This document shows positions 782 to 63,574 of a stretch of DNA of 64,000 bases, piece by piece. Position 1 is the stretch's first letter. Each line of letters opens with the position of its first letter. The notes under the pieces are model-generated. The model was not told the origin of the DNA and did not search any database. It saw nothing but the letters and a program-made list of their open reading frames with translations. The translations under genes were made by a program, and so were the position numbers. The stretch lies in contig NZ_CP071596.1 in assembly GCF_017357105.1 (NCBI RefSeq), forward strand, positions 2,604,001 to 2,668,000, given 5' to 3'. Source of the DNA: Natronosalvus caseinilyticus. Its GTDB lineage: Archaea; Halobacteriota; Halobacteria; Halobacteriales; Natrialbaceae.

Positions 782-2254
782 ATGTCGGAGCGCCCGAACA
801 TCCTGTGTATCGTTACCGATCAGCAGCGAGGCGACTGTATCGGTGCGGATCCGCACGCGCCGACCGATGCCGACGGCCGATCGCTCCTCCACACACCGAA
901 CATCGACAGTTTCGTCCGGAAGGGGGCGATGTTTACCCGGGCGTATACGCCCGCTCCATCGTGCATCCCCGCACGCCGATCACTGCTTACCGGGCAGACG
1001 CCGTACACCAACGGTGCGCCCGGATGGGTAACGACGCCGTGGGAGTTCGAACACACGCTCCCCCAGGAGCTTCGCGACGCGGGCTACCAGACCAAGCTCG
1101 CCGGCAAGATCCACTCGCTCCCGATTCGCAATCACGTCGGCTTCGAGAGCATGGACCAGCACGAGGCGCTTCACGCCCACCCCGACGACGACTACGCTCG
1201 CTGGCTCGAACAAGAGACCGACGGTCAGTGCGACGAGCTTGCCCACGGACTCGGGCGAAACTCCTGGGATTCGCGGCCGTGGCACCTCGAGGAGTACCAG
1301 CACCCGACGAACTGGACGACCAGGCGAGCGATCGAATTCCTCGATCAGCGGGATGACTCCCGCCCGTTCTTCCTCAACCTGTCTTACGTCCGCCCGCACA
1401 CGCCGTTCGATCCGCCGCAGGTGTACTGGGACATGTACGTCGACCGCGATACCCCGGAGCCGTACATGGGCGACTGGGTCGACGACGAACACGGCGAGAA
1501 GATACCCGACTATCCGGGGATCAGCGCCTGGGTCGCCGACCTTCCGCCGATGGTCGTCCACCGGGCGCGGGCGGCCTACTACGGTCTCATTACCCACATC
1601 GATCATCAGATCAAACGCGTCCTCGAAAAACTCCGTCTGATTGGCGAACGCGACAACACGTTCGTCGTGTTCTGCTCCGATCACGGCGAGATGCTCGGCG
1701 ATCACCACATGTGGCGAAAGACCTACGCTTACGAGGGCTCGGCTCGCGTCCCACTCCTGCTGCGGTTCCCCGACTCGATGGGGCTCCCACAGGAGCGGCT
1801 CATCGACCGGCCCGTCGGACTCGAGGACGTGATGCCGACGCTCCTATCGGTCGCCGACGTCGACGTTCCGGACGCCGTCGAGGGACGAAACCTGCTCGAC
1901 CTCGTTCGCGACCCCGACCGCGAGGACTGGCGCGAGTGGTACCACGGCGAGCACGCCGCCGGGAGCTACGATCCGGAGAACGGCACCCAGTACTTGGTCG
2001 ACGGTCGGTTCAAGTACGTCTGGAACCCCGTAACCGACAGCGAACTGCTCTTCGACCTCGCACACGATCCGGGCGAGGAGCGCGACCTCTCGAGCGAGGC
2101 CGAACACGCGAGCGATCTCGAGCGCGCCCGAATCGCGATGATCGACCAGCTTGCGGGTAGACCGGAAGGGTTCGTCGAGGACGGGGAACTCGTCCCGACG
2201 GATGCCGGGCCAGACGATATCGGAAATCCGGACGACTGCAGTTCGGACAGCTGA
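782..2254 (+). CDS. Type I sulfatase (formylglycine-dependent arylsulfatase family)
   Basis: Hydrolyses sulfate esters, here probably from imported sugars. The family signature C-x-P-x-R is present as C61-I-P-A-R65. The Cys is the residue converted to the catalytic formylglycine. The N-terminal strand ending in D15 and the D300-H301-G pair supply typical metal and active-site residues. At 490 aa it has normal family length. There is no signal peptide or membrane segment, so the enzyme should act in the cytoplasm. I start it at 782 rather than 755 because the upstream TATA-like box fits that ATG and because the protein then begins with the usual conserved first strand. The isomerase remnant at 2444 follows on the same strand. 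No formylglycine-generating enzyme is encoded nearby, so maturation must rely on a gene elsewhere. The exact substrate cannot be read from the sequence. Confidence 0.93.
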   Translation: MSERPNILCIVTDQQRGDCIGADPHAPTDADGRSLLHTPNIDSFVRKGAMFTRAYTPAPSCIPARRSLLTGQTPYTNGAPGWVTTPWEFEHTLPQELRDAGYQTKLAGKIHSLPIRNHVGFESMDQHEALHAHPDDDYARWLEQETDGQCDELAHGLGRNSWDSRPWHLEEYQHPTNWTTRRAIEFLDQRDDSRPFFLNLSYVRPHTPFDPPQVYWDMYVDRDTPEPYMGDWVDDEHGEKIPDYPGISAWVADLPPMVVHRARAAYYGLITHIDHQIKRVLEKLRLIGERDNTFVVFCSDHGEMLGDHHMWRKTYAYEGSARVPLLLRFPDSMGLPQERLIDRPVGLEDVMPTLLSVADVDVPDAVEGRNLLDLVRDPDREDWREWYHGEHAAGSYDPENGTQYLVDGRFKYVWNPVTDSELLFDLAHDPGEERDLSSEAEHASDLERARIAMIDQLAGRPEGFVEDGELVPTDAGPDDIGNPDDCSSDS

Positions 2255-2414
2255 TTGTCGACTCACGCCTCGAGTCCACCATCGAGAGGCCGTCGACGAG
2301 TAACTCGAGGACGGGCCGCGACTCGTTTCGACGCGACCGGTACCACGACGTTCGGTCAGTGGGTCGAACGCACAAGAGAGCACTCTCGACAGAGATGGGG
2401 CCGTGCAACAGTAC

Positions 2415-2443: not shown

Positions 2444-3231
2444 ATGGTACGCACGGCGATACAGCTGTACACGCTGCGAGGCCTCGAGGAGCCGATCCGG
2501 GAGACGCTCTCGCGCGTGGCTGACACCACCTTCGAGGGCGTCGAACTCTACGACGCTCACTTCGACTCCTTCGCGGACGAATCGGCCCTCGAACGAACGG
2601 TGGACGCACTCGTCGAGACGGACCTCGCTGTCGCCGGTGTACACGTCGACGTCGACCGGATCGAAGACGAGTTCGACGACGTCGTGAGCGCGTGCGAGTC
2701 GGTCGACGTTTCCAGGGTCGTCGTTCCGTCGTACGACGCACGTGCCTTCCAGTCGGTCGAAGGGATCGAAGCGGCCGCCGGTCGCCTCGCCGACGTCGCC
2801 GTCGAACTCGACGTACACGACCTCGACCTGCTCTATCACAACCACACGTTCGAGTTCGACGTCGTCGACGGGAGGGTCGCTTTCGAGCGGTTCGCCGATT
2901 GCGCCGACGGGCGCTTCGGATTCGAACCGGACGTCGGCCTCGCGGCTCACGCCGGCTACGATCCCCTCGAGTTGCTGGAGTGTACGGCGGGAAGGCACCG
3001 CTCGTTCACCTCACGGACACGGTACCGGGGGACGAGTCCCTGCTCCACGTCGACGTCGGGGACGGTGTCGTCAACGTCGACGCCTGCGCGTCAGCAGCGG
3101 CGTCGGTGGGCACCGAGTGGCTCATCTGCGAGAACGGCCTCACCGAGAAGCCCCTCGCGTCGCTCGCACGTGGAAGCGCCACGTTCGCGGACAGATGTGC
3201 TCGAGCAGAGACCGTGGACGACGGCTGCTGA
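2444..3231 (+). pseudogene. Sugar phosphate isomerase/epimerase (xylose-isomerase-like TIM barrel), frameshifted
   Basis: The N-terminal 179 codons from 2444 read as a TIM-barrel isomerase/epimerase: an opening MVRTAIQLYTLR strand, F-x-G-V-E-L-Y, a YHNHTFEF segment and an FEPDVG strand. At about 2980-2983 the reading frame changes. The original frame continues into Ser/Thr/Arg-rich nonsense, while the -1 frame continues the family pattern (YGGKAPLVHLTD, then HVDVGDGVVN and WLICENG) to a TGA at 3229-3231. Joined together, the product would be about 262 aa, normal for the family. One missing base between GAG-TG and TAC explains it, so this is either a real inactivation or a sequencing error. 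Members bind a divalent metal and isomerise or epimerise sugars. Two intact relatives exist at 23995 and 44686. Confidence 0.82.
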
Positions 3232-3352
3232 CCGGAGCGTCCCACTGGATTGCGTGTACCTCCTCGCTGAGACGGCTCACACTCTCTCGAGACTCGTCCA
3301 AAACGAAGACGACGGGATCAGTCAATCGAGACGTGTGATCGGGTTTCAGCCC

Positions 3353-4804
3353 TCAATAGCCCACGTACACCGTCTTGCTGATGGTGAAGAAGTCGAGACC
3401 GGCGTCGCCCTGCTCGCGATAGGTTTCGCTCGAGGACGCTTTCATGCCGCCGAAGGGGACGTGGAGTTCCAGCCCCGTCGTCTGCTGATTCACCTTGACG
3501 ACGCCCGCCTCGACGTCGTCGACGAACGCGTTCGACTCGCGGAGATCGTTCGTGACGATGCTGGCCGACAGGCCGTACTCGACGTCGTTGGCGATCTCGA
3601 CGGCCTCGTCGTACGTCGCCGCCGGGATAACGCCGAGAACGGGGCCGAAAATCTCCTCCTGGGCGATCCGCATCTCGGGTGCGACGTCGGAGAACACCGT
3701 TGGCTCGACGTAGTAGCCGTTCGCGTGGTCGCCCTCGGTGAGGCGCTCCCCGCCCGTCTCGAGGGTCGCGCCCTCTCTCGTCCCGACGTCGACGTACTCG
3801 AGGGTGCTCTCGAGTTCGCTCTCGCTCACGTGCGGTCCGACGTCCGCTCCGTCGAGACCGTCGCCGACCGTTAGCGATTCCGCCCGGTCGACGAGGGCTT
3901 CCACGAACTCGTCGTAGAGCGACTCGTGAACGATCGCCCGCGAGGTCGCGGTGCAGGCCTGGCCGGTTACCCCGAACGCACCGCCGGCGGCGATGTCGGC
4001 GGCCTCCTCGACGTCGGCGCTGGCGGTGACGACGACCGGGTTCTTGCCACCCATCTCGAGCTGGACGCGCTTCTGGTCCTCGGTCGCCTGCTGATGCACC
4101 GTGTCGCCGACCTTCGCGCTGCCGGTGAACGAGACGGCGTCGACGTCCTCGTGGGTCGCGAACGTCGAGCCGACCGCGCTCCCGGGACCGGTGACGTAAT
4201 TGACGACGCCGTCCGGCAGTCCGGCGTCCTCGAGGCACTCGACGAGGATCCTCGCGACGTTGGGAGCGAGCGAGGCGGGTTTGAAGACGACGGCGTTGCC
4301 GGCGGCCAGCGCCGGTGCGAGTTTCCAGGCCGGGATCGCGATCGGGTAGTTCCACGGCGTGATCAACGCCGCGACGCCCAGCGGTTCGTCGACTGAGTAC
4401 AGACGGGTGTCCTGACTGCTCGAGGACTTCACCGTGCCCCCGATATCGGCGGCCTTCTCGCCGTAGTAGGCGAAGATGTCGATCGCTCGCTGGACCTCGC
4501 CCGCCGCCTCGGGCTCAGTCTTTCCTTCTTCCCTGACGAGCGCCGTCGTCGCCTCGTCCTTGCGATCTGCGAGCCGTTTCGACGTCTCTCGGAGGATGCG
4601 CCCGCGCCCGGGGCCCGGCGTAGCGGCCCACTCGTCTTTGGCCGCATTGGCCGCGTCAATCGCTCGTTCGGCGTCTTCGGCGTCTGATCGTTGAAAGACG
4701 CCGATCGTGTCGTTCACGTCGGCCGGATTCGTGTTTTCGAACGTTTCGCTGGTAGACGCTTCGGTCCACGTCCCGTCGACGAAGTTCAGATAGGTGTCGG
4801 CCAT
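3353..4804 (-). CDS. NAD(P)-dependent aldehyde dehydrogenase, alpha-ketoglutarate-semialdehyde / 2,5-dioxovalerate type
   Basis: A complete 483-aa aldehyde dehydrogenase. The cofactor-side WNYP motif has N152, the general-base glutamate is E250 (QLEMGGKN), and the catalytic cysteine is C284 in GQACTA. Overall pattern is closest to the alpha-ketoglutarate-semialdehyde dehydrogenases that end the oxidative pentose, uronate and glucarate routes of haloarchaea, such as XacF in the Haloferax xylose pathway. I infer that it oxidises alpha-ketoglutarate semialdehyde to alpha-ketoglutarate. That fits the DapA-type and FAH-type dehydratase candidates at 10027 and 37326. It sits on the minus strand behind the atypical SDR at 4918 (113-base gap) and converges with the broken isomerase. 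No signal peptide, cytoplasmic. A succinate-semialdehyde or betaine-aldehyde-like specificity cannot be excluded. Confidence 0.85.
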   Translation of the reverse strand: MADTYLNFVDGTWTEASTSETFENTNPADVNDTIGVFQRSDAEDAERAIDAANAAKDEWAATPGPGRGRILRETSKRLADRKDEATTALVREEGKTEPEAAGEVQRAIDIFAYYGEKAADIGGTVKSSSSQDTRLYSVDEPLGVAALITPWNYPIAIPAWKLAPALAAGNAVVFKPASLAPNVARILVECLEDAGLPDGVVNYVTGPGSAVGSTFATHEDVDAVSFTGSAKVGDTVHQQATEDQKRVQLEMGGKNPVVVTASADVEEAADIAAGGAFGVTGQACTATSRAIVHESLYDEFVEALVDRAESLTVGDGLDGADVGPHVSESELESTLEYVDVGTREGATLETGGERLTEGDHANGYYVEPTVFSDVAPEMRIAQEEIFGPVLGVIPAATYDEAVEIANDVEYGLSASIVTNDLRESNAFVDDVEAGVVKVNQQTTGLELHVPFGGMKASSSETYREQGDAGLDFFTISKTVYVGY

Positions 4805-4917: not shown

Positions 4918-5964
4918 TCAGAACTCGCCGTCCCGGACGTGGAACTTCGTGGGTTTGCCGAGGGTGGGACCGTCCTGTTCGACCCACGAGGCAACGAGTT
5001 CGACGACGTCGTCGACCGGCATCTTCGGAACCGCGAACTGCTTCTGGCATCGACTCGCGTCGTTGAGTAACGCCGTCTCCTTCTCCTCGCCCTGGAACGT
5101 CACGTCGCAGCCGAATTCGTCGGCGAACTGTTCGGCGAGGTCGCGCACCGAGAGGACGTTCGGCCCGGTGACGTTCAGAATGTCGGCCGGTGAATCCGCC
5201 AGGTCCAGGGAGCGGAAGCAGACGGAGTTGGCGTCACCCTGCCAGATCACGTTGACGTGGCCCATCTCGAGCGGAACCGGGTCTTCGGCGTACACTCGCT
5301 TCGCGAGGTCGAGTAACACGCCGTAGCGCAACTCGACGGCGTAATTGAGCCGGAGGAGACACGTGGGCGTCCCGTTCTCCTTCGAGAAGTGCTGGAAGAC
5401 GCGTTCGCGTCCCAGACACGACTGGGCGTACTCGCCCACCGGCCCCGTCTCGTCCGTCTCGACCGAGCCGCCGGAGTCGACCGGTACCGGCGGGTAGACG
5501 TTGCCCGTCGAGAGCGCGGTGATCCGCGAATCCGCGAACCGGCTCGCGACGCGGCCGGGGAGGTAGGCGTTGATCGCCCAGGTTTTGGGCTCCTGGCCGG
5601 TCGTACCGAACTTCATGCCCACCAGGTAGATGACGTTCTCGCAGTTCGGCAGCGACTCGAGCGCGCCCTCCTCGAGGAGGTCCGCCCGGATCGTCTCGGC
5701 GCCCCACGACTGGAGTCTCTCCTCGACAGCGGAATCGGAGTACCGCGAGACGGCGTACACGGTCGAATCGGATCCCGCCTCGCCGATTGCTCTGAGCATT
5801 CGCCTGATGAGCGTCGGCCCCATCTTCCCGCCCGCACCGAGAACCATGATATCGCCCTCGAGTTGTTCCGCGAATTCGACGTCCTCGGGGTAGGGTTCAG
5901 AGAGGAGATCCTCTAGCTGTGCTTCGGTCGTTATCGTCGATGAAATCGAATTTCCGTCACTCAT
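4918..5964 (-). CDS. NAD-dependent epimerase/dehydratase-like protein (atypical extended SDR)
   Basis: The N-terminal Rossmann fold has a glycine-rich loop at 43-49 (G-A-G-G-K-M-G). A TGNVYPP segment near 153-159 matches the Ser/Thr and sugar-binding region of extended SDRs, and a late GPNVLSVRDLAEQF helix also fits the epimerase family. The active-site Tyr is followed by A-Q-S-C (Y179 to C183), so the usual YxxxK lysine is missing, which makes this an atypical member. Possible roles are NAD-dependent oxidation, epimerisation or a redox/binding function with sugar substrates. A TATA-like box in reverse orientation (about 6018-6026) leaves a leader of roughly 30 bases. It is followed downstream on the same strand by the semialdehyde dehydrogenase. 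Cytoplasmic. The substrate is unknown. Confidence 0.78.
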   Translation of the reverse strand: MSDGNSISSTITTEAQLEDLLSEPYPEDVEFAEQLEGDIMVLGAGGKMGPTLIRRMLRAIGEAGSDSTVYAVSRYSDSAVEERLQSWGAETIRADLLEEGALESLPNCENVIYLVGMKFGTTGQEPKTWAINAYLPGRVASRFADSRITALSTGNVYPPVPVDSGGSVETDETGPVGEYAQSCLGRERVFQHFSKENGTPTCLLRLNYAVELRYGVLLDLAKRVYAEDPVPLEMGHVNVIWQGDANSVCFRSLDLADSPADILNVTGPNVLSVRDLAEQFADEFGCDVTFQGEEKETALLNDASRCQKQFAVPKMPVDDVVELVASWVEQDGPTLGKPTKFHVRDGEF

Positions 5965-8016: not shown

Positions 8017-8391
8017 ATGAAAGAGGTCAGTACCGACGATGCGCCCGCCAGTATCGGCCCGTACTCGCAAGCGATGGTCCACGGCGACACGGTCTACGTC
8101 TCCGGACAGGGGCCAGCGAACCCCGAATCGAGGGAAGTCGAGGTCGACGACATTCGAGACCAGACGGCCCAGACCCTCGAGAACATCGGCGCCATCCTCG
8201 AGGCGGCAGGGGCGTCACTCGACAACGTGATCAAGGCCAACGTGTACGTCACCGACATGGACAACTACGACGCGGTCAACGAGGTGTACGCCGAGTACAT
8301 GTCCGAACCGTTCCCGGCGCGGTGTGCGGTCGAGGTGTCCGACCTCCCGATCGACATCGGCGTCGAAATCGAAGTCGTCGCGGCGTTGTAG
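8017..8391 (+). CDS. RidA family enamine/imine deaminase
   Basis: RidA (YjgF/YER057c/UK114) proteins hydrolyse reactive enamine/imine intermediates, such as 2-aminoacrylate released by PLP ammonia-lyases, to keto acids. This 124-aa protein is the usual length and shows IGPYSQA near the start, the YVSGQ strand, and the C-terminal P-A-R-C-A-V-E-V segment whose Arg binds the carboxylate of the substrate. A conserved Glu is present in the final strand region. It is cytoplasmic and probably trimeric, as in the family. In this island a plausible source of enamines is the SelA-like ammonia-lyase candidate at 36103, but RidA also serves general amino acid metabolism. Confidence 0.93.
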   Translation: MKEVSTDDAPASIGPYSQAMVHGDTVYVSGQGPANPESREVEVDDIRDQTAQTLENIGAILEAAGASLDNVIKANVYVTDMDNYDAVNEVYAEYMSEPFPARCAVEVSDLPIDIGVEIEVVAAL

Positions 8392-8636
8392 CACCCACCT
8401 CCGTTTTCCACCGTCGACTCGAGGGTAGCCGAGCCGAGACGACGGTCCCGATCCCATCGATGGACCGCAATTCCAGCGGTGACGTCGACTCCACTAGCGT
8501 CCGTTCGCCCCGTCGAACACGGAGCCAGACACGACGGACTTCCCGACGAACAGCTCTCGGACCCGGAACGGGCCCGTTTCGCACACATTGGGTTTGAAAT
8601 GACGAAACGTCACGGAAAGTGTTCGGCAGTAAGGAA

Positions 8637-8645
8637 CGTTTATTG
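8637..8645 (+). promoter_or_regulatory. TATA box of the IclR gene
   Basis: CGTTTATTG lies about 26 bases before the ATG at 8668. It marks that ATG as the start and rejects the longer frame from 8479. Confidence 0.6.
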
Positions 8646-8667
8646 TGGTCGAGTCCCATTCCCCGCT

Positions 8668-9438
8668 ATGAACCAAGAAGCCCTCCCCCCCGGCGGCCAG
8701 GTGCAAGCGACGCACCTTTCGCTCGACATCCTGGACGAGATTCGTCGCCGAGACGGGGCCGGCGTGACCGAACTCGCCACCCACTTCGATCGGTCGAAGA
8801 GCACGATTCACAGCCACCTGCGGACGCTGACGAGCGAGGGATACCTGATCAACGAGGACGGGTTCTACACCGTCGGCCTTCGAGCCCTCCAGCTGGGCGG
8901 TCACGCCAGGGTCAAACATCCCCTCTACCGGATGGCGAAAGACGAAATAGACGAACTCGCGAGAGAGACGGGGGAAACGGCCAAGATCGTCGTCGAAGAG
9001 GGTGGCAAAGGCGTCTACCTCTATCAGGCCCGGTCGAAACAGGCGGTTACGACGGACTCTCACGTAGGAACGCACGTGTTCTTGCACTCGACAGCGGTCG
9101 GCAAAGCGATTCTCGCTTACATGGACGAATCGGAACGGGAGGCCATCCTCGACGAGTACGGACTCCCCGAAGTGACCTCGAATACGGTCACCGATCGAGG
9201 AGCGCTCACGGCCAGACTCGAGGATATCCGGGAGCGTGGCTTCGCGTTCGACGATGGCGAACGGATCGAAGGGCTTCGGTGTGTCGCTGCCCCGATCAAA
9301 TCAGACGAGGAGGTGCTGGGTTCGATCAGCGTCTCCGGTCCGAAGAAGCGAATCGACGACGAAACCTTCCGATCGACGCTCCCGGAACTGGTACGGGATA
9401 CCGCTCGCGTCATCGAAATCAACGTGATCTATTCGTAA
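8668..9438 (+). CDS. IclR-family transcriptional regulator
   Basis: 256 aa. Residues about 12-75 form a winged helix-turn-helix (VTELATHFDRSKSTIHSHLRT). The remainder is the IclR effector-binding domain, recognised by HSTAVGKAILAY, then RGFAFDDGERIEGLRCVAAPI and LGSISVSGP. Haloarchaeal IclR proteins commonly control sugar catabolic genes, XacR of the Haloferax pentose pathway being one example. Being the only clear regulator in the window, this is the best candidate for control of the polysaccharide island, with a sugar acid as the likely ligand type. No operator can be assigned with certainty. The palindromes at 49204-49259 and 32189-32276 are candidates to test. It stands alone between RidA and a long non-coding stretch. 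Confidence 0.93.
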   Translation: MNQEALPPGGQVQATHLSLDILDEIRRRDGAGVTELATHFDRSKSTIHSHLRTLTSEGYLINEDGFYTVGLRALQLGGHARVKHPLYRMAKDEIDELARETGETAKIVVEEGGKGVYLYQARSKQAVTTDSHVGTHVFLHSTAVGKAILAYMDESEREAILDEYGLPEVTSNTVTDRGALTARLEDIRERGFAFDDGERIEGLRCVAAPIKSDEEVLGSISVSGPKKRIDDETFRSTLPELVRDTARVIEINVIYS

Positions 9439-10026: not shown

Positions 10027-10974
10027 TTACGCCTCGAGAGAGATCGTCTCGTTCTGGCTCTCGAGTCGCTCGAGGTACCGTTCGACGCGGTCGCGATCGT
10101 CGCTCGAGAGTTCGACGAGGGGTTCACGAACGGGACCGCCGGCCATTCCCTGTAACTCCTGTCCGTATTTCACTACCGGTACGTTCTTTGCCGAACTGAA
10201 CGCGGACCCGCCACCGTGTTCTTCCCTGAAATCTTCGAACGGTCGGAGCGCGTCCTTGAGCTGTCTGGCGCGAGCCCAGTCGCCGGCCGAGAGCGCCTCG
10301 TCGAGCGCCAGAACTGGTTTCGGGACGAAGTTCCCGATTCCGGTGGTGAACCCGTCGGCACCCTCGATAGCGTACGCGAGCGCGTATCGCTCGGCCACGC
10401 CGTTGAGCCACTCGACGTCTCCCGGAACCGTCTGGACCAGCCGAGAGAAGAGTTTCACGTCGTTGACGGCGTACTTCACGGCGACGACGTTGTCGATCGT
10501 CGAGAGCTCGCCGAGTACCGTCTCGCTGAGCAGGTCGCCGCGCTTGTACAGGACGATTCCGAGGTCTGTGGCCGCAGCGAGCGTACGGTAGTACTCGATC
10601 AACCCCTGCTCGTGTACGTAGGTGTGTCTCGGGTACATGACCATGACGGCGTCAACTCCGGCCGCTTCGTACGCCTCGATCAGTTCGACGGCGTTCTTCG
10701 CACTGCCACCGACGCCACCGACGACCGTCGCGTCGTCGGGGAGGGCGTCGACCGTCGATTGGATCACGTCGATTCGTTCGTCCTGGGAGAGCGAGTAGTA
10801 CTCGCCCGTGTTTCCACAGGGGATGAACGTTCGAGCGCCCGCGTCGTAGAGCGTTCGAGCGTTCTGCTCGATTTTCTCGTGGAGTACTCGATCACGGTCG
10901 GCGCTAAACGGCGTCGGTGTCGTGAACGCTACGCTCTGCAGACTCTCGCGTAAGTCACCGTATGCGGTCGTCAT
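10027..10974 (-). CDS. DapA/NAL-superfamily aldolase or dehydratase
   Basis: A class I Schiff-base lyase of 315 aa. The Schiff-base lysine is K167 in VVAVKYAVND, the active-site Tyr is Y143 in VLYKRGD, and the carboxylate-binding loop is G54-N-T-G-E58. The superfamily includes dihydrodipicolinate synthase, N-acetylneuraminate lyase, 2-keto-3-deoxy-gluconate aldolase and 5-dehydro-4-deoxyglucarate dehydratase. The neighbourhood is sugar-acid catabolism, not lysine synthesis. I therefore favour a sugar-acid role: aldol cleavage of a 2-keto-3-deoxy acid, or a dehydratase/decarboxylase giving alpha-ketoglutarate semialdehyde for the dehydrogenase at 3353. An AATAAT element about 30 bases upstream on the minus strand may be its promoter. 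It is divergent from the HEAT-repeat gene. Confidence 0.85.
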   Translation of the reverse strand: MTTAYGDLRESLQSVAFTTPTPFSADRDRVLHEKIEQNARTLYDAGARTFIPCGNTGEYYSLSQDERIDVIQSTVDALPDDATVVGGVGGSAKNAVELIEAYEAAGVDAVMVMYPRHTYVHEQGLIEYYRTLAAATDLGIVLYKRGDLLSETVLGELSTIDNVVAVKYAVNDVKLFSRLVQTVPGDVEWLNGVAERYALAYAIEGADGFTTGIGNFVPKPVLALDEALSAGDWARARQLKDALRPFEDFREEHGGGSAFSSAKNVPVVKYGQELQGMAGGPVREPLVELSSDDRDRVERYLERLESQNETISLEA

Positions 10975-14720: not shown

Positions 14721-14775
14721 GTCCGTGGCCGACGGCGGGGCAACTGTTTTCATGCCCCGACGAATCGTATGGCAC

Positions 14776-14997: not shown

Positions 14998-15101
14998 CGC
15001 GGTGGGCCGTACTGAAATCTGGTGTCGGTTCGTCGACCGGTTCGAAAATCCACCGGTGGGACAAACTATATTAGTATCCGGACGACACACGATAGCAGTA
15101 C

Positions 15102-17304: not shown

Positions 17305-17348
17305 CCACGTTCCTGGTTCGAACCCGTACCGTTCGACGCCGAGACAAG

Positions 17349-17356: not shown

Positions 17357-17384
17357 CGACCTGTTGTGAAACCCCTGGTACGAA

Positions 17385-52764: not shown

Positions 52765-54141
52765 CTGAAAGAGAGGGCGCTAAGCCCCCGCACGAGTGTC
52801 AAACCATTCTAATCAGAACATTTAATTAACCACAACCACTAGCAGAGGACAAGTCGCATGGAGTACAGTTCACGATACAGGCTCTTCCCAACGACCGACC
52901 AACGCGAGAGCCTCGACTGGACTCGTGACATCGTGCGACAAGTGTATAACCACGCACTCTACGAATTCAACCAGATACCAGAAGACGACGGAACCCTTCG
53001 ACAACGCGTCTGGAGCGTCCGAGACGAACTGCCAGCCTGGAAAGACTGGTGGGCAGGACTCACCAACGTCTACTCAACCGTCTTGCAGAAAGCTGTCGAA
53101 CGTATCCGAACCAACATCCAAAACCTCGGCAAGTTGAAAGCCAAAGGGTACGATGTTGGCTCGTTGAACTGGAAGAAACCGCGAGAGTACAGGTCGTTCA
53201 CGTATCGGCAATCGGGCTTCGAACTCGACAAGAAGAGTGGCCCGCGAGGCCGAGCAATTCTCCGACTCAAAAAAGTCCGCGGCGACACCCTGGAAATCCC
53301 AATCCGACTCCACCGAGACCTTCCAGCACACGACGCTATCAAAGAGGTTACGGTGAAGAAAGAACCCACCGGGGCGTGGTACGCCTCGTTCTGCATCAGC
53401 ACGGAGACGCCAGAGAAACCCGCTCCAGATGATATCAATGCCGAAGACACTGTAGGTCTCGACCTCGGTGTACTCAACTTCATCCACGACTCGGACGGTT
53501 GCTCCATCGGGCGACTCGACTTGGTCGATGAGCGAGAGCGCCTGGAACGCGAGCAGCGCTCGCTCTCCCGAAAGCAATACGAGTCGAATAACTGGGAGAA
53601 ACAGCGCCTCCGCGTTGCTGAGGTTCACGCTCGCATGTCGAACAAGAAATGCGATTACAAGCACAAACTCGCGCATTTCTACGCGACGGAGTACGACGCC
53701 GTGTTCGTCGAGAACTTGAACGTGAAGTCGATGCTGGAGTCGGAGGGCAACGCTCGGAACAAGGCTGAAGTGGGTTGGAGTGATTTCCGTTCGGCACTCA
53801 AACATCACTGCAAGAAGCACGGCACGCACTACGTGGAAGTCAACCCACGAGGCACGACGAAGGAGTGTGTGTCGTGTGGCGTAGAAACCGAGAAACCGCT
53901 GTGGGTTCGGGAACACTCGTGTCCCGCGTGTGGGTTCGAGTTGGATAGGGATTGGAACGCCGCGTTGAACGTGAAATCGCGTGGTCTGTCGAAACTAGGA
54001 GTGGTTCACTCCAAAGCAACGCCTGTGAAGACTGCGACCGCTGTGGACTCGGTTTCCATGTCTGCAAGTCGCGTCGTGGAAACAGGAAGCCCCCGCCTCA
54101 AGGAACGAGCACAAGCGAGTGAGTAAGCAGGGGTAGTTCAC
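52765..54141 (+). mobile_element. IS1341-type element (IS200/IS605 family, TnpB only)
   Basis: The left end has a GGGC-GCTAA-GCCC hairpin at 52775-52787. The right end has a partial hairpin, CCCCCGCCT (54090-54098) against AAGCAGGGG (54125-54133), followed by GTAGTTCAC. Only tnpB is present, with no TnpA Y1 transposase, as usual for IS1341-type elements of haloarchaea. No terminal inverted repeats or target duplications are expected. The exact left border is uncertain by a few bases. It sits between the ceramidase-like gene and the esterase gene. Confidence 0.8.
52858..54126 (+). CDS. tnpB: TnpB (IS605 OrfB), RNA-guided nuclease of an IS1341-type element
   Basis: 422 aa, full length. TnpB proteins are ancestors of Cas12 and cut DNA at sites specified by a guide RNA made from the element's right end. 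The RuvC-like triad is complete: D202 in VGLDLGVLNF, E285 in VFVENLNV, and D363/D365 in ELDRDWNAALN. The zinc ribbon has CVSC and CPAC pairs before the last Asp. The N-terminal MEYSSRYRLFPT and the basic helix region are typical. With all catalytic residues intact it may be active, although without TnpA it cannot move alone. An AT-rich leader with TTTAATTAA precedes the ATG. Base use is more AT-rich than in its neighbours, a sign of foreign origin. Confidence 0.95.
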   Translation: MEYSSRYRLFPTTDQRESLDWTRDIVRQVYNHALYEFNQIPEDDGTLRQRVWSVRDELPAWKDWWAGLTNVYSTVLQKAVERIRTNIQNLGKLKAKGYDVGSLNWKKPREYRSFTYRQSGFELDKKSGPRGRAILRLKKVRGDTLEIPIRLHRDLPAHDAIKEVTVKKEPTGAWYASFCISTETPEKPAPDDINAEDTVGLDLGVLNFIHDSDGCSIGRLDLVDERERLEREQRSLSRKQYESNNWEKQRLRVAEVHARMSNKKCDYKHKLAHFYATEYDAVFVENLNVKSMLESEGNARNKAEVGWSDFRSALKHHCKKHGTHYVEVNPRGTTKECVSCGVETEKPLWVREHSCPACGFELDRDWNAALNVKSRGLSKLGVVHSKATPVKTATAVDSVSMSASRVVETGSPRLKERAQASE

Positions 54142-54180: not shown

Positions 54181-56598
54181 ATGCCAGCAGACACACCTCC
54201 CGACGACTACCCGCTACACCCCGAACGTATCCACGGACAGCCATCGTCTGCACAGGAGAGACAACGGCGACGAGACTATCTCGATGAACTGCGCCCCCTG
54301 CTCGCGCCAGAGGCCGACGAGTACGGCTCCGATCCTCGCGTCTCTCACCGCGACGACAGCTGGCTCGAGTGGCAAGAACGGACCGGCGAACTTCCACCAG
54401 ACTTCGAGCGGTTGCCGGCACTCGCCGAACTTCCCGACCCCCTCGTTCAGTACGGACCTGGAGGGGAACGCCACGCCGAGGTTACGACCCGCAAGGAGTG
54501 GGAACAGCAGCGAGATCGATACAAACACCAGCTCGAGCACTGGCTCTACGGACGGATGCCCCCTGCACCGGGGAACGTTCGGGCGAGCGATCTCGACTCT
54601 CGGTCAGTTGAGGGAGCAACGATTCGCGACGTCCGCCTCGAGTTCGGTCCGAACCACGACCTGACGCTCGACCTCGAACTCATGGTCCCGGACGGGGAAG
54701 GGCCGTTTCCGGTGTTCATGACCCAGTGGAACCACCGCAAGTGGGCGCTGCTCGCCCTCCAGCGGGGCTACGCGGCCGTCGTCTACGCGGCGGCCGACGC
54801 CCGGGACGACGCGGCCGACTACGGGGAGTACTACCCCGACTACGACTTCCAGTTGCTCGCTCGGCGGGCGTGGGCCGCCCATCGCGTCGTTGACTACCTC
54901 GAGACGGTGCCCGAGGCTGACGACGATCAGATTGCGATCACGGGTGCGTCGCGAAACGGCAAGCAGTCGCTGATCGCCGCGGCGTTCGACGACCGCATCG
55001 CCGCGGTCGCCCCCTGTAGCGCCGGGAGCGGCGCCGTCGTTCCAGCACGGTTCGATCGGGACGACTGCTACGCCGGCGATATGTCGGTCCATGCGCGGCT
55101 TCGGCGCAGCTGGTTCCACCCGCGCTGGCGGTTCTTCGTGGGCCGGGAGAATCGCCTCCCCGTCGACGCCAACCACCTCGTCTCGCTCGTCGCGCCGCGC
55201 GCCTGTCTGGTCCACACGGCGCTGAACGAGCGGACGACGAGTGCGTGGGCCGTCGCGCAGGTGTACCACTCCGCCAACTCAGTCTACGACCTCCTGGACG
55301 CCGGCGACCGACTCGCCCTGCAGTATCGCCAGGGTCGTCACGCCAGGACCACGCGAGATATTCACCAGATCCTCGACTTCTTCGACGACGCGTTCGGACG
55401 CGGCGAGTACGACGACCCGACGCGGCTCTACCACGACTTTTCGTTCGAGGAGTGGTGTCGGACGGCGGCCGATGACATCGACGTCGCCGAATTCCCCGAA
55501 CGCGGACTCGAGGACCCCCTGCTCGACGATGGTACCCGAGCCGAGACGATCGAGGAGTGGGCAGATCGAAAATCGACTCTCCGGGACCGCATCCGCTGGA
55601 GCTTCGGCGAGCGACCGCCGCGCGCGTCGGACCCGCCGGCGTCCTCGCTCGAGGAGGCGGGTCGAGGCGGGAAACCGGACTACCTCGCGGACGTCATCGG
55701 TCGACCCGACCCGCCGGACGGCGTCGAGAAACGGTGGCTGTCGCCGTCGCGCACCTACGGCGAACGTGTCGAGGGCGACCTCTACTATCCGCAGTCGACC
55801 GATAGTGACCGTCCGGACGAACGGTTGCCCGCCATCGTCTGGTTGCATCCCTACGCCTACAACACCGGGTCCGGAGCGGGCGGACGTGGCCAGGTCCCAG
55901 TCGAGGGGGCCACCGACCGCGGGTTCGCGCTGTACGCCTACGACCAACTCGGCTTCGGCACCCGGATCGAGGAGGGTGAACGTTTCTACGAGCGCCACCC
56001 GAACTGGTCGAAGATGGGCAAGCTGGTCGACGACGCGTTGGCCGCCGTCGAGACACTCTCGGGGCTCGAGTGCATCGACTCGGACCGGATCTTCGTCCTC
56101 GGATACTCCCTCGGAGCCACCGTCGGGCTGTACGCGGCGGCGCTCGACGAGCGCATTGCCGGCGTCGCCTCGGTCGGTGGGTTCGCGCCGTTCCGGACGA
56201 GCGATTCCGAAACCGAACGAGCCAACGCGGTGATCGGCCGACTGTCGCACATGCACGGGCTCCAACCCCGTCTTGGGCTGTTTCGGGACGACCCTGAGCG
56301 AGTCCCGTTCGACTTCCACGAGGTGCTCGGACTGATCACACCCCGACCGACGCTCGCGGTAGCCCCGTCGCTCGACTGGACCCATCCACAGGCGGACGTC
56401 CTTCGGTGCGTCTCCGAGGCCCGGTCCGTCTACGACCTGTACGGGGTGCCCGAGGCGCTCGAGGTCCGCGCGCCGGACGACCTGTTGAGCTTCGATTATC
56501 ACGAGGCCCGTCTCGGCGGCGGATCCGAGGAGTCGCCCGAGGCGTTCTCCACGGACCGACGGGACGCAATCTTCGACTGGATCGCCGACCAGGCCTGA
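54181..56598 (+). CDS. Tandem alpha/beta-hydrolase: glucuronoyl-esterase-like N half plus acetyl-esterase-like C half
   Basis: 805 aa with two hydrolase domains. The N half contains G-A-S257-R-N-G-K, the G-x-S-R-x-G-K motif characteristic of CE15 glucuronoyl esterases, which hydrolyse esters of uronic acid carboxyls. The C half (about 490-805) has a standard nucleophile elbow G-Y-S643-L-G with a late ASVGGFAPF and His-containing end (SFDYHEARL), like acetyl-xylan-esterase or dienelactone-hydrolase folds. No signal peptide is present, so it should act on imported fragments. The pair could remove carboxyl esters and acyl esters from the same oligosaccharide. The TnpB element ends only about 40 bases before the ATG and no TATA box is seen between them. 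Confidence 0.85.
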   Translation: MPADTPPDDYPLHPERIHGQPSSAQERQRRRDYLDELRPLLAPEADEYGSDPRVSHRDDSWLEWQERTGELPPDFERLPALAELPDPLVQYGPGGERHAEVTTRKEWEQQRDRYKHQLEHWLYGRMPPAPGNVRASDLDSRSVEGATIRDVRLEFGPNHDLTLDLELMVPDGEGPFPVFMTQWNHRKWALLALQRGYAAVVYAAADARDDAADYGEYYPDYDFQLLARRAWAAHRVVDYLETVPEADDDQIAITGASRNGKQSLIAAAFDDRIAAVAPCSAGSGAVVPARFDRDDCYAGDMSVHARLRRSWFHPRWRFFVGRENRLPVDANHLVSLVAPRACLVHTALNERTTSAWAVAQVYHSANSVYDLLDAGDRLALQYRQGRHARTTRDIHQILDFFDDAFGRGEYDDPTRLYHDFSFEEWCRTAADDIDVAEFPERGLEDPLLDDGTRAETIEEWADRKSTLRDRIRWSFGERPPRASDPPASSLEEAGRGGKPDYLADVIGRPDPPDGVEKRWLSPSRTYGERVEGDLYYPQSTDSDRPDERLPAIVWLHPYAYNTGSGAGGRGQVPVEGATDRGFALYAYDQLGFGTRIEEGERFYERHPNWSKMGKLVDDALAAVETLSGLECIDSDRIFVLGYSLGATVGLYAAALDERIAGVASVGGFAPFRTSDSETERANAVIGRLSHMHGLQPRLGLFRDDPERVPFDFHEVLGLITPRPTLAVAPSLDWTHPQADVLRCVSEARSVYDLYGVPEALEVRAPDDLLSFDYHEARLGGGSEESPEAFSTDRRDAIFDWIADQA

Positions 56599-59803: not shown

Positions 59804-62800
59804 TCAGTCGACGCGTTCCCAGGTGTGGGATAGCGGAATGCGCATCGGTGCGCCCGATTCGATCGTGTACTCGTAGCCGGCGTCGGGATTCGACGGATCG
59901 ACGTACCTCTCGACGGTCGTCGTTTCGCCGATATCCAGGGTGAGCTGGTTGCCCCGGTCGCTCGTCGCGCCCTCGATGCGGTACGCTTCGGCGCCCGTTC
60001 CCGTCTCGACGTAGAGCCACTCGCCGACGAGGTCGTCGGCGTCGTCGGGTCGATGCTCCGACGTCAGTCGGACCTGAATTTCGTTCGTCCGCGACGGCTC
60101 GCGTGTGAAGTCCACCACGTGCCCGTCGAATGCGTCGGGTTGATCGCGAATCAGTGGCGGTCCATCGCGAGCGGGCGCGAGCATCGATCCGTCCTCGAGG
60201 AACGCCGACTTCGCAACCCCGTCGCGCTCGGAGTAGACGGCCAGGAACCCCTCGAACCGGAACACGTCCCCGACCCGGCAGGTCGAGTCGCCGGGTGCGT
60301 AGGCGACGTAGTCAGTACGGCCGTTCGACAGCGTCACCTGCACGGCTCTCGCAACGCCGTCGTCCGAGTGAACGGGTACCGGTTCGATCGACTCGACGTT
60401 TCGCGACTCGCGGTAGGGTTCGATAACGGAGGTGAACGTGCTCTTGAGGTTCGACCCGTGACGTCGAGCGAGAGCGTAGCGGAGGCTCCACGGATTCCCG
60501 GTGTGACGAGGCGGCCGGCCGTCCGCGAGCGCGACCTCGTCGACGTCGCCGACCATCGTCAGCCGGAGGTGGGCATCCCCTTCGTCAGGGACGACTCCCG
60601 GTGCGTCCGTGACCTCCCAGTCGACGCTGAATCGCTCGTCCGGGTCGTCGTCGTGGACGACGGCGTCCAGGTAGTCGAAGCCGTTGCCGACCCTCCGGTC
60701 GTGGGCGGATTCCTCGCCGTAGACTGGTCGGGGGACGTCTGGTCCGGCGTAGGTTCCGCCGTCCTGGGCCTCGAGGTCGAGCCCGCTCGTCGTGGTTGAC
60801 TCGGCCGCACCGTGGAAACTGAAGCGATGATCATCGCCACCGACGATCCGGAAGAAGTCGACCGCGTACGAGTGGTGGTTGTTGATCCGCACCATCGCAG
60901 TGGTGCGGCGGTACTGGCTCGTCGTCGGGTACGCGCCCGTCGAGTCGACGTCGGCGAGGCGTACCCGATCTGTCTCCCTGAAGTGGTGGGGTGACCCACC
61001 CTCGGTTTCCGACTGCGGGGACTCGTCGACCACGACAGTGTTGTGACTGATCGTGTTCGACGTCCAGTGCTCTCCCTTCGGCCACGCCGACAACTCGGCG
61101 GGCGAGTCTGGATCTCGCCAGAAGCCGGTGTGCTCGGGATAGCCCAGGGCTGGCGCGAGGTCGCCGCCGTAGGCGTGGACGTCCAAGTGTAACGCGTCGC
61201 GATACGACCGGTCCGATCCCCGGCCGTCCGGCGTCGAGGCCCCGTACCGGAGGGCAAACGACCGCTGGGTGTTCCCGCGTTCGGCCTCGAGTTCCTCCTC
61301 GCGCTGGGCGCGCTCGTCGAGGAACTTGCACTCGATGACGCCCATTTTGTAGTTCGTGGCGGCGGGTCGCTTGCCAGTGTTCTCGAACGTGATCCGGTGT
61401 TCGCCCCTCGAGAGGTCGACCTCGTCGGCGAGGACGGTGAACTCTTTAGCGCCCGTCACCTCGTCGTAGAAGTCGTACTCGGCGATCCGCTCGCCGTCGA
61501 TCAGCACGTCGTAGGTGCCGTACCCCGACGACCTGAACGGCTTCAGGCTGAACTCGTAGGTTTCGGCGACCGGGATCGAGAACTGGAACGTGATCGACTG
61601 ACCCACCGTGTCCGCCTCGAACTGGACCGTGCCGCTGTTGCTGTAGACGGTGTAGTCGGTCGTGTGCTCGAGGACGATCATCGAGGGGAACTGGTCGACG
61701 ACGCGGTAGCCGCCGCGGATGTAGTGGTCGCCGTCCCGAAGCGCGACGAACCCGGTTCCCGCCTGGTTCGTGCTCGAAAGTTCCAGCGGCCCGTCGGCGT
61801 CGATAACCTCGCGCACCGCCTTCGCAGTGCCCGCCGGGTCCGGGCTGAAGATGCTGCCGTGGAGGTCGTCGTACCCGTACCCGTTCGCGAGGAACGCCCC
61901 CTTCGCGAACTGGCCGTCGCCGAACGACTCCAGGGCGGTCGTCATCGCTTCGGTCTCAATCGGCAGCCACGGCGTGCCGGTTCGTCCCATCGCCCCCATA
62001 CTGGGCAGGTACGCTTCGCGAAGCACCTGCGGGAGTCGGCCGCCGGCCGCTCGTTCAAGTTTCGGGTGGTCGGCCAGCGCCGGATCGTTGTCTCCCTCGT
62101 ACCCCTCGAGGACGGCCGTCACGCGCTCGAGCGCCCGATACGCCCGTTCGGCGGCCGCTGGCGATCCCGGCGCGTTGCCGTCCCGATCGACGGCGTCGAC
62201 CAGTTCGGCGCGCAGGCTGCCGCCGGTGACGCCCCACTCGCCCCAATACGAGCCGTCGTCGCGGTGGGTCCGCTCACCAGGTCGAAGGAGAAACTCGAGG
62301 ACGTCACCGGTGTACCCATCAGGGTCGTTCTGGACGGCCCCAGCCATCGCGAGCGCCGTTCGGTGACCGCCCGACGGCGAGTGAATCTGGTGGGATTTCA
62401 CGGCAGGTAACACCGCTCGGACGACGTTCGATTCGACGTTCTCGCGGAGGTCGTCGGCCGTTCCTTTCGAGCCGATCTCGTACTCGGTCGCCCGCTCGTC
62501 CAGGAACGCGAGCAGTTCGGCGTCGTCCGTCGCGGGGAGGAACGCGTCGTACGCGCTCAGGAGGACGCGAACGGTGATCGTCTCCTGGACGCAGCCACAG
62601 ATTTTCCCCTGGCCGGTCCACTGGTGGACGCCGGCGTAGCCGTCGTCATAACGGTGAGTGGACAGATCCATCTCGGGGTAGACGTCCGCGATGCGGTCCA
62701 AGAGGACGAGTCCGGCCCGCGCGTACTCGGCGTCCTCGGTGAACAGGTACGCGTCGCGAAACGCCCTGAGCGCCTCGAGCAGTTGCTCCCAGCGGTAAAT

Positions 62801-63574
62801 CCGGTTGTAGTATGCCACGAAGTGGTAGCGGGCGCCTTCGACGCCGAGGTAGCCGTCCTCGTCGACCCAGCCAGTGCCGTCGTCGACGCCCCAGTCGTCC
62901 GGTTTGTCGGGCCGTCGCTCGTTGACGAACAGCGAGTCGTCGGCCAGGTCCGGGTCGAAGACGCCGCGATCGTCGAGACCGCTCTCGCGGTAGGCGGCGA
63001 AGTCGTTCGTCGGGAACACGCCGCCGCTCGAGGGTTCGACGACGGTCCACGGTTCGTCGGTCGCGAACGTCACGTCCTGGCGCTCGACGCCTGGGGTCGA
63101 GTCGATCAGTTCCCACGGCCGTCGCGTCGACTCGGCCTCGAACGGAACCTCGTCGAACGACTCGTATACGCCCGCGTCGTTGAGCGGGCGATCACCCTCG
63201 GCCATCGTGGAGAGCGCCACGCTCCGGGGAACGGATTGCCCGGTAACGGCCTGCCACAGTCCGTCAAACCCGTCGTAGGTCTCGAGGTACTCGGTCGCGG
63301 TTTCGACGGCCGACGCTCGCCGGTCGGCCGCCCAGGTGTAGTTCTGGACGTTCTCGAGCGCCGCGTTTCGCCGCTCCGGCGTGTACAGATTCGATCGGTG
63401 CTTCTCGGCCTGGATTACGGTTGGCCTGGAGCCTTCGCCCCGCGTCGGGTCGGCCGACAGGAACAAACCGAGCGAGAGCAGGCTCGTGGTCTGAAGAAAC
63501 TCCCGACGGCCGTGCCCTCGAGAATCCGATAGTTCGTCGTCCGGGCGATTCGTCCGCTCCACACTGTTACTCAT
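59804..63574 (-). CDS. Tat-exported heparinase II/III-like protein with altered active site (lyase 3)
   Basis: 1256 aa. Tat signal with R23-R24 (GRREFLQTT). Same domain order as the other two lyases: toroid, inserted beta domain (SGYGTYDVLIDGE), beta-sandwich with TISH844NT and a matching C terminus. However, positions equal to H768, H770 and D788 of lyase 1 are R789, Y791 and A809 in an ungapped alignment. The YYNH of the toroid reads YYNR. The loop equal to NSHGGRQTG is also changed. It may therefore be an inactive binding protein, or use other residues. Exported and likely extracellular. ATG 63574 is preferred over the upstream start at 63589. It heads an operon with the M14 protein at 58760. 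Confidence 0.85.
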   Translation of the reverse strand: MSNSVERTNRPDDELSDSRGHGRREFLQTTSLLSLGLFLSADPTRGEGSRPTVIQAEKHRSNLYTPERRNAALENVQNYTWAADRRASAVETATEYLETYDGFDGLWQAVTGQSVPRSVALSTMAEGDRPLNDAGVYESFDEVPFEAESTRRPWELIDSTPGVERQDVTFATDEPWTVVEPSSGGVFPTNDFAAYRESGLDDRGVFDPDLADDSLFVNERRPDKPDDWGVDDGTGWVDEDGYLGVEGARYHFVAYYNRIYRWEQLLEALRAFRDAYLFTEDAEYARAGLVLLDRIADVYPEMDLSTHRYDDGYAGVHQWTGQGKICGCVQETITVRVLLSAYDAFLPATDDAELLAFLDERATEYEIGSKGTADDLRENVESNVVRAVLPAVKSHQIHSPSGGHRTALAMAGAVQNDPDGYTGDVLEFLLRPGERTHRDDGSYWGEWGVTGGSLRAELVDAVDRDGNAPGSPAAAERAYRALERVTAVLEGYEGDNDPALADHPKLERAAGGRLPQVLREAYLPSMGAMGRTGTPWLPIETEAMTTALESFGDGQFAKGAFLANGYGYDDLHGSIFSPDPAGTAKAVREVIDADGPLELSSTNQAGTGFVALRDGDHYIRGGYRVVDQFPSMIVLEHTTDYTVYSNSGTVQFEADTVGQSITFQFSIPVAETYEFSLKPFRSSGYGTYDVLIDGERIAEYDFYDEVTGAKEFTVLADEVDLSRGEHRITFENTGKRPAATNYKMGVIECKFLDERAQREEELEAERGNTQRSFALRYGASTPDGRGSDRSYRDALHLDVHAYGGDLAPALGYPEHTGFWRDPDSPAELSAWPKGEHWTSNTISHNTVVVDESPQSETEGGSPHHFRETDRVRLADVDSTGAYPTTSQYRRTTAMVRINNHHSYAVDFFRIVGGDDHRFSFHGAAESTTTSGLDLEAQDGGTYAGPDVPRPVYGEESAHDRRVGNGFDYLDAVVHDDDPDERFSVDWEVTDAPGVVPDEGDAHLRLTMVGDVDEVALADGRPPRHTGNPWSLRYALARRHGSNLKSTFTSVIEPYRESRNVESIEPVPVHSDDGVARAVQVTLSNGRTDYVAYAPGDSTCRVGDVFRFEGFLAVYSERDGVAKSAFLEDGSMLAPARDGPPLIRDQPDAFDGHVVDFTREPSRTNEIQVRLTSEHRPDDADDLVGEWLYVETGTGAEAYRIEGATSDRGNQLTLDIGETTTVERYVDPSNPDAGYEYTIESGAPMRIPLSHTWERVD

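Follow-up and report, generated by a model that had tools for sequence, protein, structure and literature searches.

Analysis of a 64,000-nucleotide stretch of the haloarchaeon Natronosalvus caseinilyticus (contig NZ_CP071596.1, positions 2,604,001 to 2,668,000, or G000:C1:2604001-2668000 in our numbering; genome of 4.24 Mb in two contigs), hereafter called the window, revealed a gene cluster, best read as a polysaccharide-utilisation island, whose core recurs in other haloarchaea and which is not an artefact. Its genes fit the use of an acidic sulfated polymer containing N-acetyl-hexosamine, and they probably serve a pathway leading from extracellular lyases via an Opp-type importer to cytoplasmic sulfatases and hexosaminidases and then to a phosphate-free, oxidative catabolism of amino-sugar acids. 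Central to the last part is a new observation, namely that every one of the 35 haloarchaeal sequences compared of the pyridoxal phosphate (PLP)-dependent ammonia-lyase DgaE has lost the 6-phosphate pocket, nine of them keeping one of its arginines. Genes were called from codon-position G+C and acidic composition together with Pfam and NCBIfam profiles, and whole-genome checks on the source genome were profile searches only. The original prediction, which had been made from the sequence of the window and read it as one pathway for a sulfated polymer of amino sugars and uronic acids, named enzyme families that these profiles recovered almost item by item; to its gene list we add the DgaE-family lyase, the FAH-superfamily enzyme, RidA, 2,5-dioxovalerate dehydrogenase, the KdgD-like DHDPS-superfamily protein and the conserved protein GHx.

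Three giant proteins, HepA, HepB and HepC, are encoded in the window, and nine islands of other haloarchaea, spanning 24-80 kb and hand-picked by us from giant-bearing loci, shared 17, 15, 12, 11, 16, 12, 10, 9 and 7 of its 37 partner genes, whereas 19 control stretches of 20 kb each shared one partner gene in total. A partner gene was counted as shared at 50% identity or more over more than 50% of the length; the 37 are the 41 window genes minus the giants and the transposon gene TnpB, and include one frameshifted fragment. The two genomes of the same genus as well as G182, G243, G266, G276, G379, G263, G350, L034-L036, L038, L088 and L101 were left out of this count, and one of the 20 control stretches (L201) was dropped, its contig being already known to carry a second DgaE gene. 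The recurring core, with copies of 50-87% identity in named organisms from eight genera, comprises OppDF, the permeases, SBP5, GH3, SDR, GNAT, GH20, DgaE, FAH, DAmAc, GHx, PIG-L, IsoB/IsoC and one or both sulfatases, and is complete in none of the islands. It lies often on plasmids, several of them megaplasmids, and was seen in Halomontanus rarus, Natrinema zhouii, Natrononativus amylolyticus, Natronococcus and Haladaptatus. Conserved clustering in related genomes, which the original prediction had named as a check on itself, was thus found in nine haloarchaeal islands, next to five genomes with divergent giants and no cluster. The genes on which the argument rests are the following.

782-2254, plus strand: S1sulfA, cytoplasmic-looking S1 sulfatase (PF00884; 7oz8, 330 bits; CIPAR motif)
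3353-4804, minus strand: AldDH, 2,5-dioxovalerate (alpha-ketoglutarate semialdehyde) dehydrogenase (NF052305, 849.7 bits, cut-off 750)
8017-8391, plus strand: RidA, enamine/imine deaminase family (PF01042; TIGR00004 over cut-off)
10027-10974, minus strand: DHDPS-superfamily lyase, nearest 5-keto-4-deoxyglucarate dehydratase (PF00701; NF002958, 164.8 bits, under cut-off 278)
12546-14720, plus strand: OppDF-type double ATPase (PF00005 twice, PF08352)
15102-16187 and 16174-17304, plus strand: two Opp-type permeases (PF00528)
17849-19729, plus strand: SBP5, substrate-binding protein (PF00496; RR motif then Cys, Tat-lipoprotein-like)
20014-21666, minus strand: GH3, NagZ-type hexosaminidase (PF00933; NagZ-type motif; NF003740 under cut-off)
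21805-22668, plus strand: SDR dehydrogenase (PF13561; NF005559, 221 bits, cut-off 215)
22744-23946, minus strand: GNAT-like protein (name taken from the annotation of island homologues)
23995-24921, minus strand: IsoB, sugar isomerase/epimerase-like (weak NCBIfam matches)
25089-26840, plus strand: GH20 hexosaminidase (PF00728, PF02838; GGDE)
27136-30888, plus strand: HepA, giant modelled with a lyase fold (PF07940; RR motif)
32270-33460, plus strand: GHx, conserved protein, TIM-barrel-like in a low-confidence model (weak PF13200)
33565-34386, plus strand: PIG-L deacetylase (PF02585)
34507-35991, minus strand: S1sulfB, sulfatase (PF00884; CLPSR)
36103-37329, minus strand: DgaE-family PLP ammonia-lyase (TIGR01437 and NF047797, both under cut-offs)
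37326-38060, minus strand: FAH-superfamily enzyme (PF01557)
38134-39732, minus strand: DAmAc, D-aminoacylase/OngB-superfamily deacetylase (PF07969; 1rjp, 283 bits; PpOngB, 212 bits)
39875-43711, plus strand: HepB, giant, HepA paralog (65% identity to HepA; HxH present)
44686-45465, minus strand: IsoC, sugar isomerase-like (PF01261)
59804-63589, minus strand: HepC, giant paralog without the His pair (41% identity to HepA; R and Y at HxH)

DAmAc, FAH and DgaE are co-directional, the FAH and DgaE genes overlap by 4 bases, and S1sulfB comes next. Relatives of DgaE were detected in 88 of 391 Halobacteria genomes (E <= 1e-30), among them 11 of the 14 that bear giants, and in eight of these 11 the gene lies inside the island. 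In its published description, DGL is assigned Arg301, Arg332 and Arg346 as phosphate residues, Arg226 as carboxylate residue and also His162/163 (PMC9529869). We counted the corresponding residues by hand on an alignment to 7lc0, in which the PLP lysine, Lys-217 of PMC9529869, is residue 213 of the aligned chain; 56 haloarchaeal rows, drawn from a part of the 88 genomes, were reduced to 35 non-identical ones. The window protein has Ser, Gly and Arg at DGL positions 301, 332 and 346, and Pro-Tyr in place of His162-His163. Across the 35 sequences the 332 equivalent was Gly in every one, the 301 equivalent was never Arg (0/35) and the 163 equivalent was Tyr or Phe in 34, while the PLP lysine was present in all; at the Arg226 equivalent, Arg was found in the window and in 21/35, Lys in eight, Asp in five and Gly in one. 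With the phosphate-pocket residues lost, the substrate of haloarchaeal DgaE is very likely an acid that carries no phosphate.

The position equivalent to DGL 346, residue 384, divided the 35 sequences into nine with Arg (R-type, the type of the window), 25 with Met (M-type) and one with Ala. Neighbours were compared for the nine R-type loci and 22 others (M-type G019, G166, G167 and G185 being excluded) in stretches of unequal length, about 9-80 kb. FAH directly adjoined DgaE in all nine R-type loci, with DAmAc beside them in eight; among the 22 others FAH adjoined in none (in G270 it lay about 5 kb off, in G230, G350 and G297 farther) and DAmAc was absent from all viewed stretches. Likewise, DHDPS or dioxovalerate dehydrogenase occurred in 6/9 R-type stretches, three of them from one genus, and in 0/22 others. 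Arg384 and these neighbours are a possible sign of a substrate charged at C6, that is, an amino-aldarate derived from an amino-uronate. Of the 17 giant-free stretches compared around M-type DgaE genes, 11 carried PIG-L (39-63% identity) and nine carried RidA. A further 62 flanking proteins (of 88 listed), from 12 DgaE stretches of which two (G200, G194) are R-type, included four glucose dehydrogenases and one GH18, GFO/IDH proteins being the commonest (9/62). These neighbourhoods fit an oxidation of glucosamine to glucosaminate.

The giants had been predicted to be of the heparinase II/III type, which held for HepA, the one giant that was modelled. They are paralogs, HepB and HepC being 65% and 41% identical to HepA, respectively; HepA matched Hepar_II_III_C (PF07940; 31.2 bits, cut-off 24), whereas HepB and HepC gave no Pfam match. 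A model of HepA, obtained after removal of the signal region with a 42-sequence alignment (pLDDT 87.2, pTM 0.85), has the heparinase-type lyase fold, composed of a toroid, an inserted XBM-like module and a beta-sandwich. Its best structural match was a PL40 ulvan lyase (Z 33.9 over 712 residues, root mean square deviation 3.7), followed by PL17 alginate lyases (Z about 30) and heparinases (Z 21-26), and it also resembled PL39, PL12, PL21 and PL33-type lyases, the lyases of this fold spanning Z of about 19-34; some of these PL numbers are what we take the entry names to denote. PL12, PL15 and PL21 were considered as the family of the giants and rejected, for they share the fold but ranked under PL40 and PL17. 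The PL40 enzyme Uly1040 and the PL17 lyases have the overall fold and the HxH histidine in common with HepA, which differs from them by 15-19% identity in the structural alignments (profile alignments were partial), a longer chain and the inserted module resembling a carbohydrate-binding module; residues 547-672 of the model matched the xanthan-binding module MiXBM (Z 18.0, 28% identity).

In a profile alignment, the giants' HxH motif fell on His413/His415 of the PL17 enzyme Alg17c, of which His413 is catalytic. In the giant alignment (A2; 42 of 46 rows chosen from the window and 76 loci, with L093, L101 with stop codons, L102 and L104 left out), the first His was present in 40/42 and the second in 41/42. 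HepA and HepB have the motif; HepC carries Arg and Tyr at these positions and may be inactive, act as a binder or use other residues. The region of PL17 Tyr450 did not align with the giants, so this residue was not mapped. Export signals were assessed by eye and with a simple scan, no signal-peptide program being used: an RR motif with a hydrophobic stretch near the N-terminus was seen in the three giants and SBP5, and none was recognised in the sulfatases or GH3. In GH20, likewise, no signal peptide was recognised: its RR lies at residue 13, and a mildly hydrophobic segment begins at residue 30, inside the GH20b domain.

The wider family of the giants is large (L041-L106): some Paenibacillus genomes carry more than two copies, and the open frames are often about 2,000 amino acids long. 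In a GTDB-based collection they occur in at least 76 loci, at least 11 haloarchaeal and at least 65 bacterial, at least 42 of the latter from Paenibacillus. The bacterial loci hold few partner genes, none in more than six loci, and are therefore uninformative on the substrate.

The two predicted C-x-P-x-R sulfatases were borne out by PF00884 matches at 755-2254 (E 8.8e-49) and 34507-36075 (E 2.1e-44) with formylglycine-type motifs CIPAR (S1sulfA) and CLPSR (S1sulfB). The closest solved structures to S1sulfA were 7oz8 (330 bits) and 9koq, named only sulfatase (319 bits), the next scoring 153 bits; 7OZ8 is BT1918, a 3S-GlcNAc sulfatase of S1_46 (PMC10154620, PMC10154612), and this best PDB match makes S1_46 a possible subfamily of S1sulfA. 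Among solved structures none is close to S1sulfB (best 93 bits). GH20 (Pfam E 5.6e-59) and GH3 (20014-21792, E 3e-76; motif KHFPGHGD..DSH) agree with the hexosaminidases of the original prediction, the best NCBIfam match of GH3 being the NagZ-type model NF003740 (143.9 bits, under its cut-off of 207), and PF22244 (E 8.8e-46), PF02585 and PF07969 do so for its CE15-like esterase, PIG-L and D-aminoacylase-type deacetylases. Its sugar-acid enzymes correspond to dioxovalerate dehydrogenase, over cut-off, and to the DHDPS/KdgD-like, FAH-family and DgaE-like proteins. The expected ABC importer is present at 12546-19729, with a double ATPase, two permeases and SBP5, and belongs to the peptide/Opp family. 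Homologues of GHx in islands of other genera are 65-76% identical to it, and GHx is a candidate handler of the lyase product. Its alignment A3 comprises three distinct genes, as L033 and L039 overlap on the same Natrinema gene. The GHx model (pLDDT 56) was TIM-barrel-like with weak glycosidase matches, and was too poor to assign a glycosidase from structure, so that nothing beyond the barrel-like fold was used.

From these families we infer activities, locations and an order of steps. HepA and HepB, exported by the twin-arginine translocation (Tat) system, would act outside the cell, cleaving an acidic polysaccharide by beta-elimination with the XBM-like insert aiding binding, and the SBP5/Opp importer would bring in sulfated oligosaccharides. 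Their breakdown in the cytoplasm would involve both S1 sulfatases, GH20, the NagZ-like GH3, PIG-L and probably GHx; the N-acetyl amino sugar would be oxidised at C1 to the acid instead of being phosphorylated, and this acid would be deacetylated by DAmAc (or earlier by PIG-L). The DgaE-family lyase would then release ammonia and a 2-keto-3-deoxy acid, RidA clearing the imine, and FAH, DHDPS and dioxovalerate dehydrogenase would feed the keto acid into central metabolism. Consistent with this, profile searches of the source genome gave no match for nagB (8/14 control genomes positive) and at best 29.5 bits for nagA (cut-off 225.65), with one sub-threshold stretch inside DAmAc.

A bacterial precedent exists in the ong pathway of Pseudoalteromonas prydzensis, where OngB deacetylates GlcNAc1A, an ammonia-lyase follows and the RidA-family OngD is required (PMC9537276). 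Like the proposed route, it combines a D-aminoacylase-fold deacetylase, an ammonia-lyase and RidA with no initial phosphorylation; however, OngC is of fold type III whereas the island DgaE is of the DGL/SelA-like family (PMC9537276, PMC12017989), DAmAc is nearer to D-aminoacylases than to OngB, and the polymer of the island need not be chitin. In haloarchaea, a route for N-acetylglucosamine (GlcNAc) predicted in 2025 for Natrarchaeobius likewise has a DgaE-like lyase, accompanied by CE14, glucose dehydrogenase, IclR and RutC (RidA family), and proceeds through a supposed kinase of no known identity and glucosaminate-6-phosphate (PMC12343721); against that kinase/6-phosphate step stand the 35/35 DgaE sequences that have lost the phosphate pocket. 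The original prediction knew of no characterised archaeal pathway of this kind, which is now outdated in part: haloarchaea that grow on hyaluronan and chondroitin sulfate A were published in 2026, their equipment being PL8, GH88, GH154, a sulfatase and ABC import (PMC13260240), so that an archaeal glycosaminoglycan pathway is on record, albeit with other enzymes. This was the sole relevant work on haloarchaeal heparinases and sulfated polysaccharides to surface in a limited search that left subscription journals mostly outside. The H-hyl glycosaminoglycan (GAG) loci of Natronoarchaeum and Haloarcula resemble the island in being haloarchaeal, in a Tat-secreted extracellular lyase, a sulfatase and ABC import, and in being plasmid-borne, as are several islands here. 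They differ (PMC13260240) in having PL8, GH88 and GH154, where the island has heparinase II/III-type giants, GH20, NagZ-like GH3 and DAmAc/FAH/DgaE and no GH88, and in an amino-sugar route that its authors draw via phosphorylated intermediates, where the route proposed here is phosphate-free.

Several observations weigh against the proposed pathway. The giants are rare, being found in 14 of 391 Halobacteria genomes (E <= 1e-20); three of these 14 had no DgaE match, and DgaE lay far off in G182 and G276 and about 20 kb away in G355. Five genomes with giants of about 37-46% identity (G182, G243, G266, G276, G379) held no core cluster in 40-kb stretches, the window ends (AldDH to IclR; ceramidase-like gene to HepC) were poorly conserved outside the genus, and in the same-genus genome G250 HepC and M14B were not in the 80 kb examined. 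In the source genome FGE (PF03781) gave no match (4/14 control genomes positive) and anSME (TIGR03942) reached at best 27.8 bits (cut-off 349.45); an unrecognised sulfatase maturase is possible. Nor was there any GH88 match (PF07470; 3/14 controls positive, including Haloferax volcanii), so the lyase product must be handled another way. DAmAc scored plain D-aminoacylases above OngB, FAH was nearest to HpaG-type enzymes, and no gene was assigned to the C1 oxidase or lactonase step, no genome search having been aimed at the lactonase.

Some further details concern these same proteins. The best anSME candidate was set aside, as it matches the heme-type pseudo-SAM family TIGR04347 over cut-off; FGE occurs in 16/194 Halobacteria. 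PL8 had no match in the source genome and none in the control genomes either, so its absence cannot be claimed. In an alignment with AfDam, DAmAc has GSS for GST, whose Thr would by residue count occupy the OngB Ser292 site; OngB Gln298 lies beyond the alignment, and ungapped counting gives Leu. An FAH-type hydrolase of 2,4-diketo-3-deoxy acids takes part in rhamnose breakdown in Haloferax; this function was not adopted for the window FAH, HpaG/HpcE outscoring rhamnonate hydrolase, and neither was uronate dehydrogenase for EpimA, which had no NCBIfam match.

The original prediction was supported in part: a catabolic island for a polymer with amino sugars and sulfate, with lyase-fold enzymes, stood, and a content of uronic or amino-uronic acids is possible on the grounds of that fold and the downstream sugar-acid genes. 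A vertebrate-type GAG (heparan or chondroitin sulfate, hyaluronan), as used by the newly described haloarchaea, appears unlikely. Hexosaminidases, S1 sulfatases and heparinase-fold lyases do occur together in the island, BT1918, nearest to S1sulfA, has as its substrate the 3S-GlcNAc found in mucin and heparan sulfate, and haloarchaeal growth on GAGs is on record (PMC13260240), but the source genome has no GH88 match, while the H-hyl plasmid islands always have GH88 beside PL8, and its authors argue that bird carcasses are the only route of GAGs into brines (PMC13260240). HepA-bearing plasmid records come from sediments and from a salt mine, which is weak evidence in either direction. A haloarchaeal surface or secreted polymer, with the island scavenging the slime of neighbours, is conceivable, although we would not yet count on it. 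The exopolysaccharide (EPS) of Haloferax mediterranei consists of Man and GlcNAcA, one GlcNAcA being 3-O-sulfated, and that of Haloferax denitrificans of GlcA2,3NAc and Gal (PMC3191746), both being acidic polymers of amino-uronates; a Haloferax-type sulfated GlcNAcA EPS is a candidate polymer, a halococcal-type wall polymer being another form of this explanation. The kinship of S1sulfA with a 3-O-sulfo-GlcNAc sulfatase, Arg384 of the island DgaE clade, which could bind a C6 carboxylate, and the DHDPS or dioxovalerate dehydrogenase genes of the R-type loci point the same way. Nothing, however, ties the island directly to any polymer, Arg346 of DGL is just one of three phosphate arginines and may be structural, and the neighbour count is tempered by the shared genus and the unequal stretches mentioned above.

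That the cluster is a loose pile-up of general sugar genes and not one pathway we consider improbable. Many of its families are common (SDR, GFO/IDH, ABC, FAH), CE15 and M14B were found in the same genus only, TnpB sits in the right half and the five divergent-giant genomes lack the cluster; against this, the core recurs across eight genera with almost nothing in the controls. We would be at least as surprised if the giants, though of this fold, worked as epimerases or as binding proteins. The HepA model does match human dermatan sulfate epimerase (Z 24.2), HepC lacks the His pair and the Tyr450 region is unaligned, but the top structural matches are lyases (PL40, PL17), HepA and HepB retain the His, and the giants have export-like N-termini and cluster with an importer and hexosaminidases.

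The remaining features of the window are as follows.

4918-5964, minus strand: EpimA, epimerase-like SDR-extended protein (PF01370; near FAH/DgaE in G200 and G215)
8479-9438, plus strand: IclR-type regulator (PF01614)
11230-12384, plus strand: HEAT-repeat protein (PF13646)
30940-32298, minus strand: DegT-type aminotransferase (PF01041)
45462-46526, minus strand: aldo/keto reductase-like protein, AKR (from translation; Halomontanus homologue annotated likewise)
46603-47649 and 47711-48790, minus strand: two GFO/IDH/MocA dehydrogenases (PF01408, PF22725)
49678-50532, plus strand: glutamine-amidotransferase-like protein (PF07090; in 6/17 stretches around M-type DgaE genes)
51137-52549, plus strand: neutral-ceramidase-like protein (PF04734)
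52858-54126: TnpB-like transposon gene
54181-56598, plus strand: CE15-like esterase with a second alpha/beta-hydrolase domain (PF22244, PF05448)

The two same-genus genomes retain most of the window in order and both lack TnpB and AKR; in both, the ceramidase-like and CE15 genes, which TnpB splits here, adjoin. A sugar-isomerase-like gene at 2444-3338 is apparently frameshifted in the window, intact in G250 (L111) and missing from G277. PGA_cap and the ceramidase-like gene occur at about 49-61% identity in few other loci. In islands of other genera the HEAT-repeat protein stays near the importer or its binding protein, and the GNAT-like protein was present in seven of the nine counted islands. 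A long protein annotated as a SufS-family cysteine desulfurase lies in the Halomontanus (L223, 38087-39727) and Natrononativus (L225, 6512-8140) islands; none of this type was seen among the window proteins scanned.

A bolder version of the pathway, which we regard as rather unlikely as a whole, would make the island a haloarchaeal phosphate-free route for 2-acetamido-2-deoxy-uronates, in which a GlcNAcA-type residue of sulfated haloarchaeal EPS would be oxidised to the amino-aldarate, deacetylated by DAmAc and turned by Arg384-type DgaE into a 2-keto-3-deoxy-aldarate, with the KdgD-like DHDPS and dioxovalerate dehydrogenase leading to 2-oxoglutarate. The island would then recycle archaeal slime, and the lyases, the specificity of the ammonia-lyase and possibly the route of sulfatase maturation would all be previously undescribed. 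The proposed pathway in its general form makes two questions testable, namely what activates S1 sulfatases in a haloarchaeal cell that lacks FGE and how the unsaturated residue is removed without GH88. If true, it would show how haloarchaea recycle sulfated amino-sugar polymers in brines, would give the archaea a heparinase-fold lyase system and would correct the predicted haloarchaeal amino-sugar route by removing the 6-phosphate from it.

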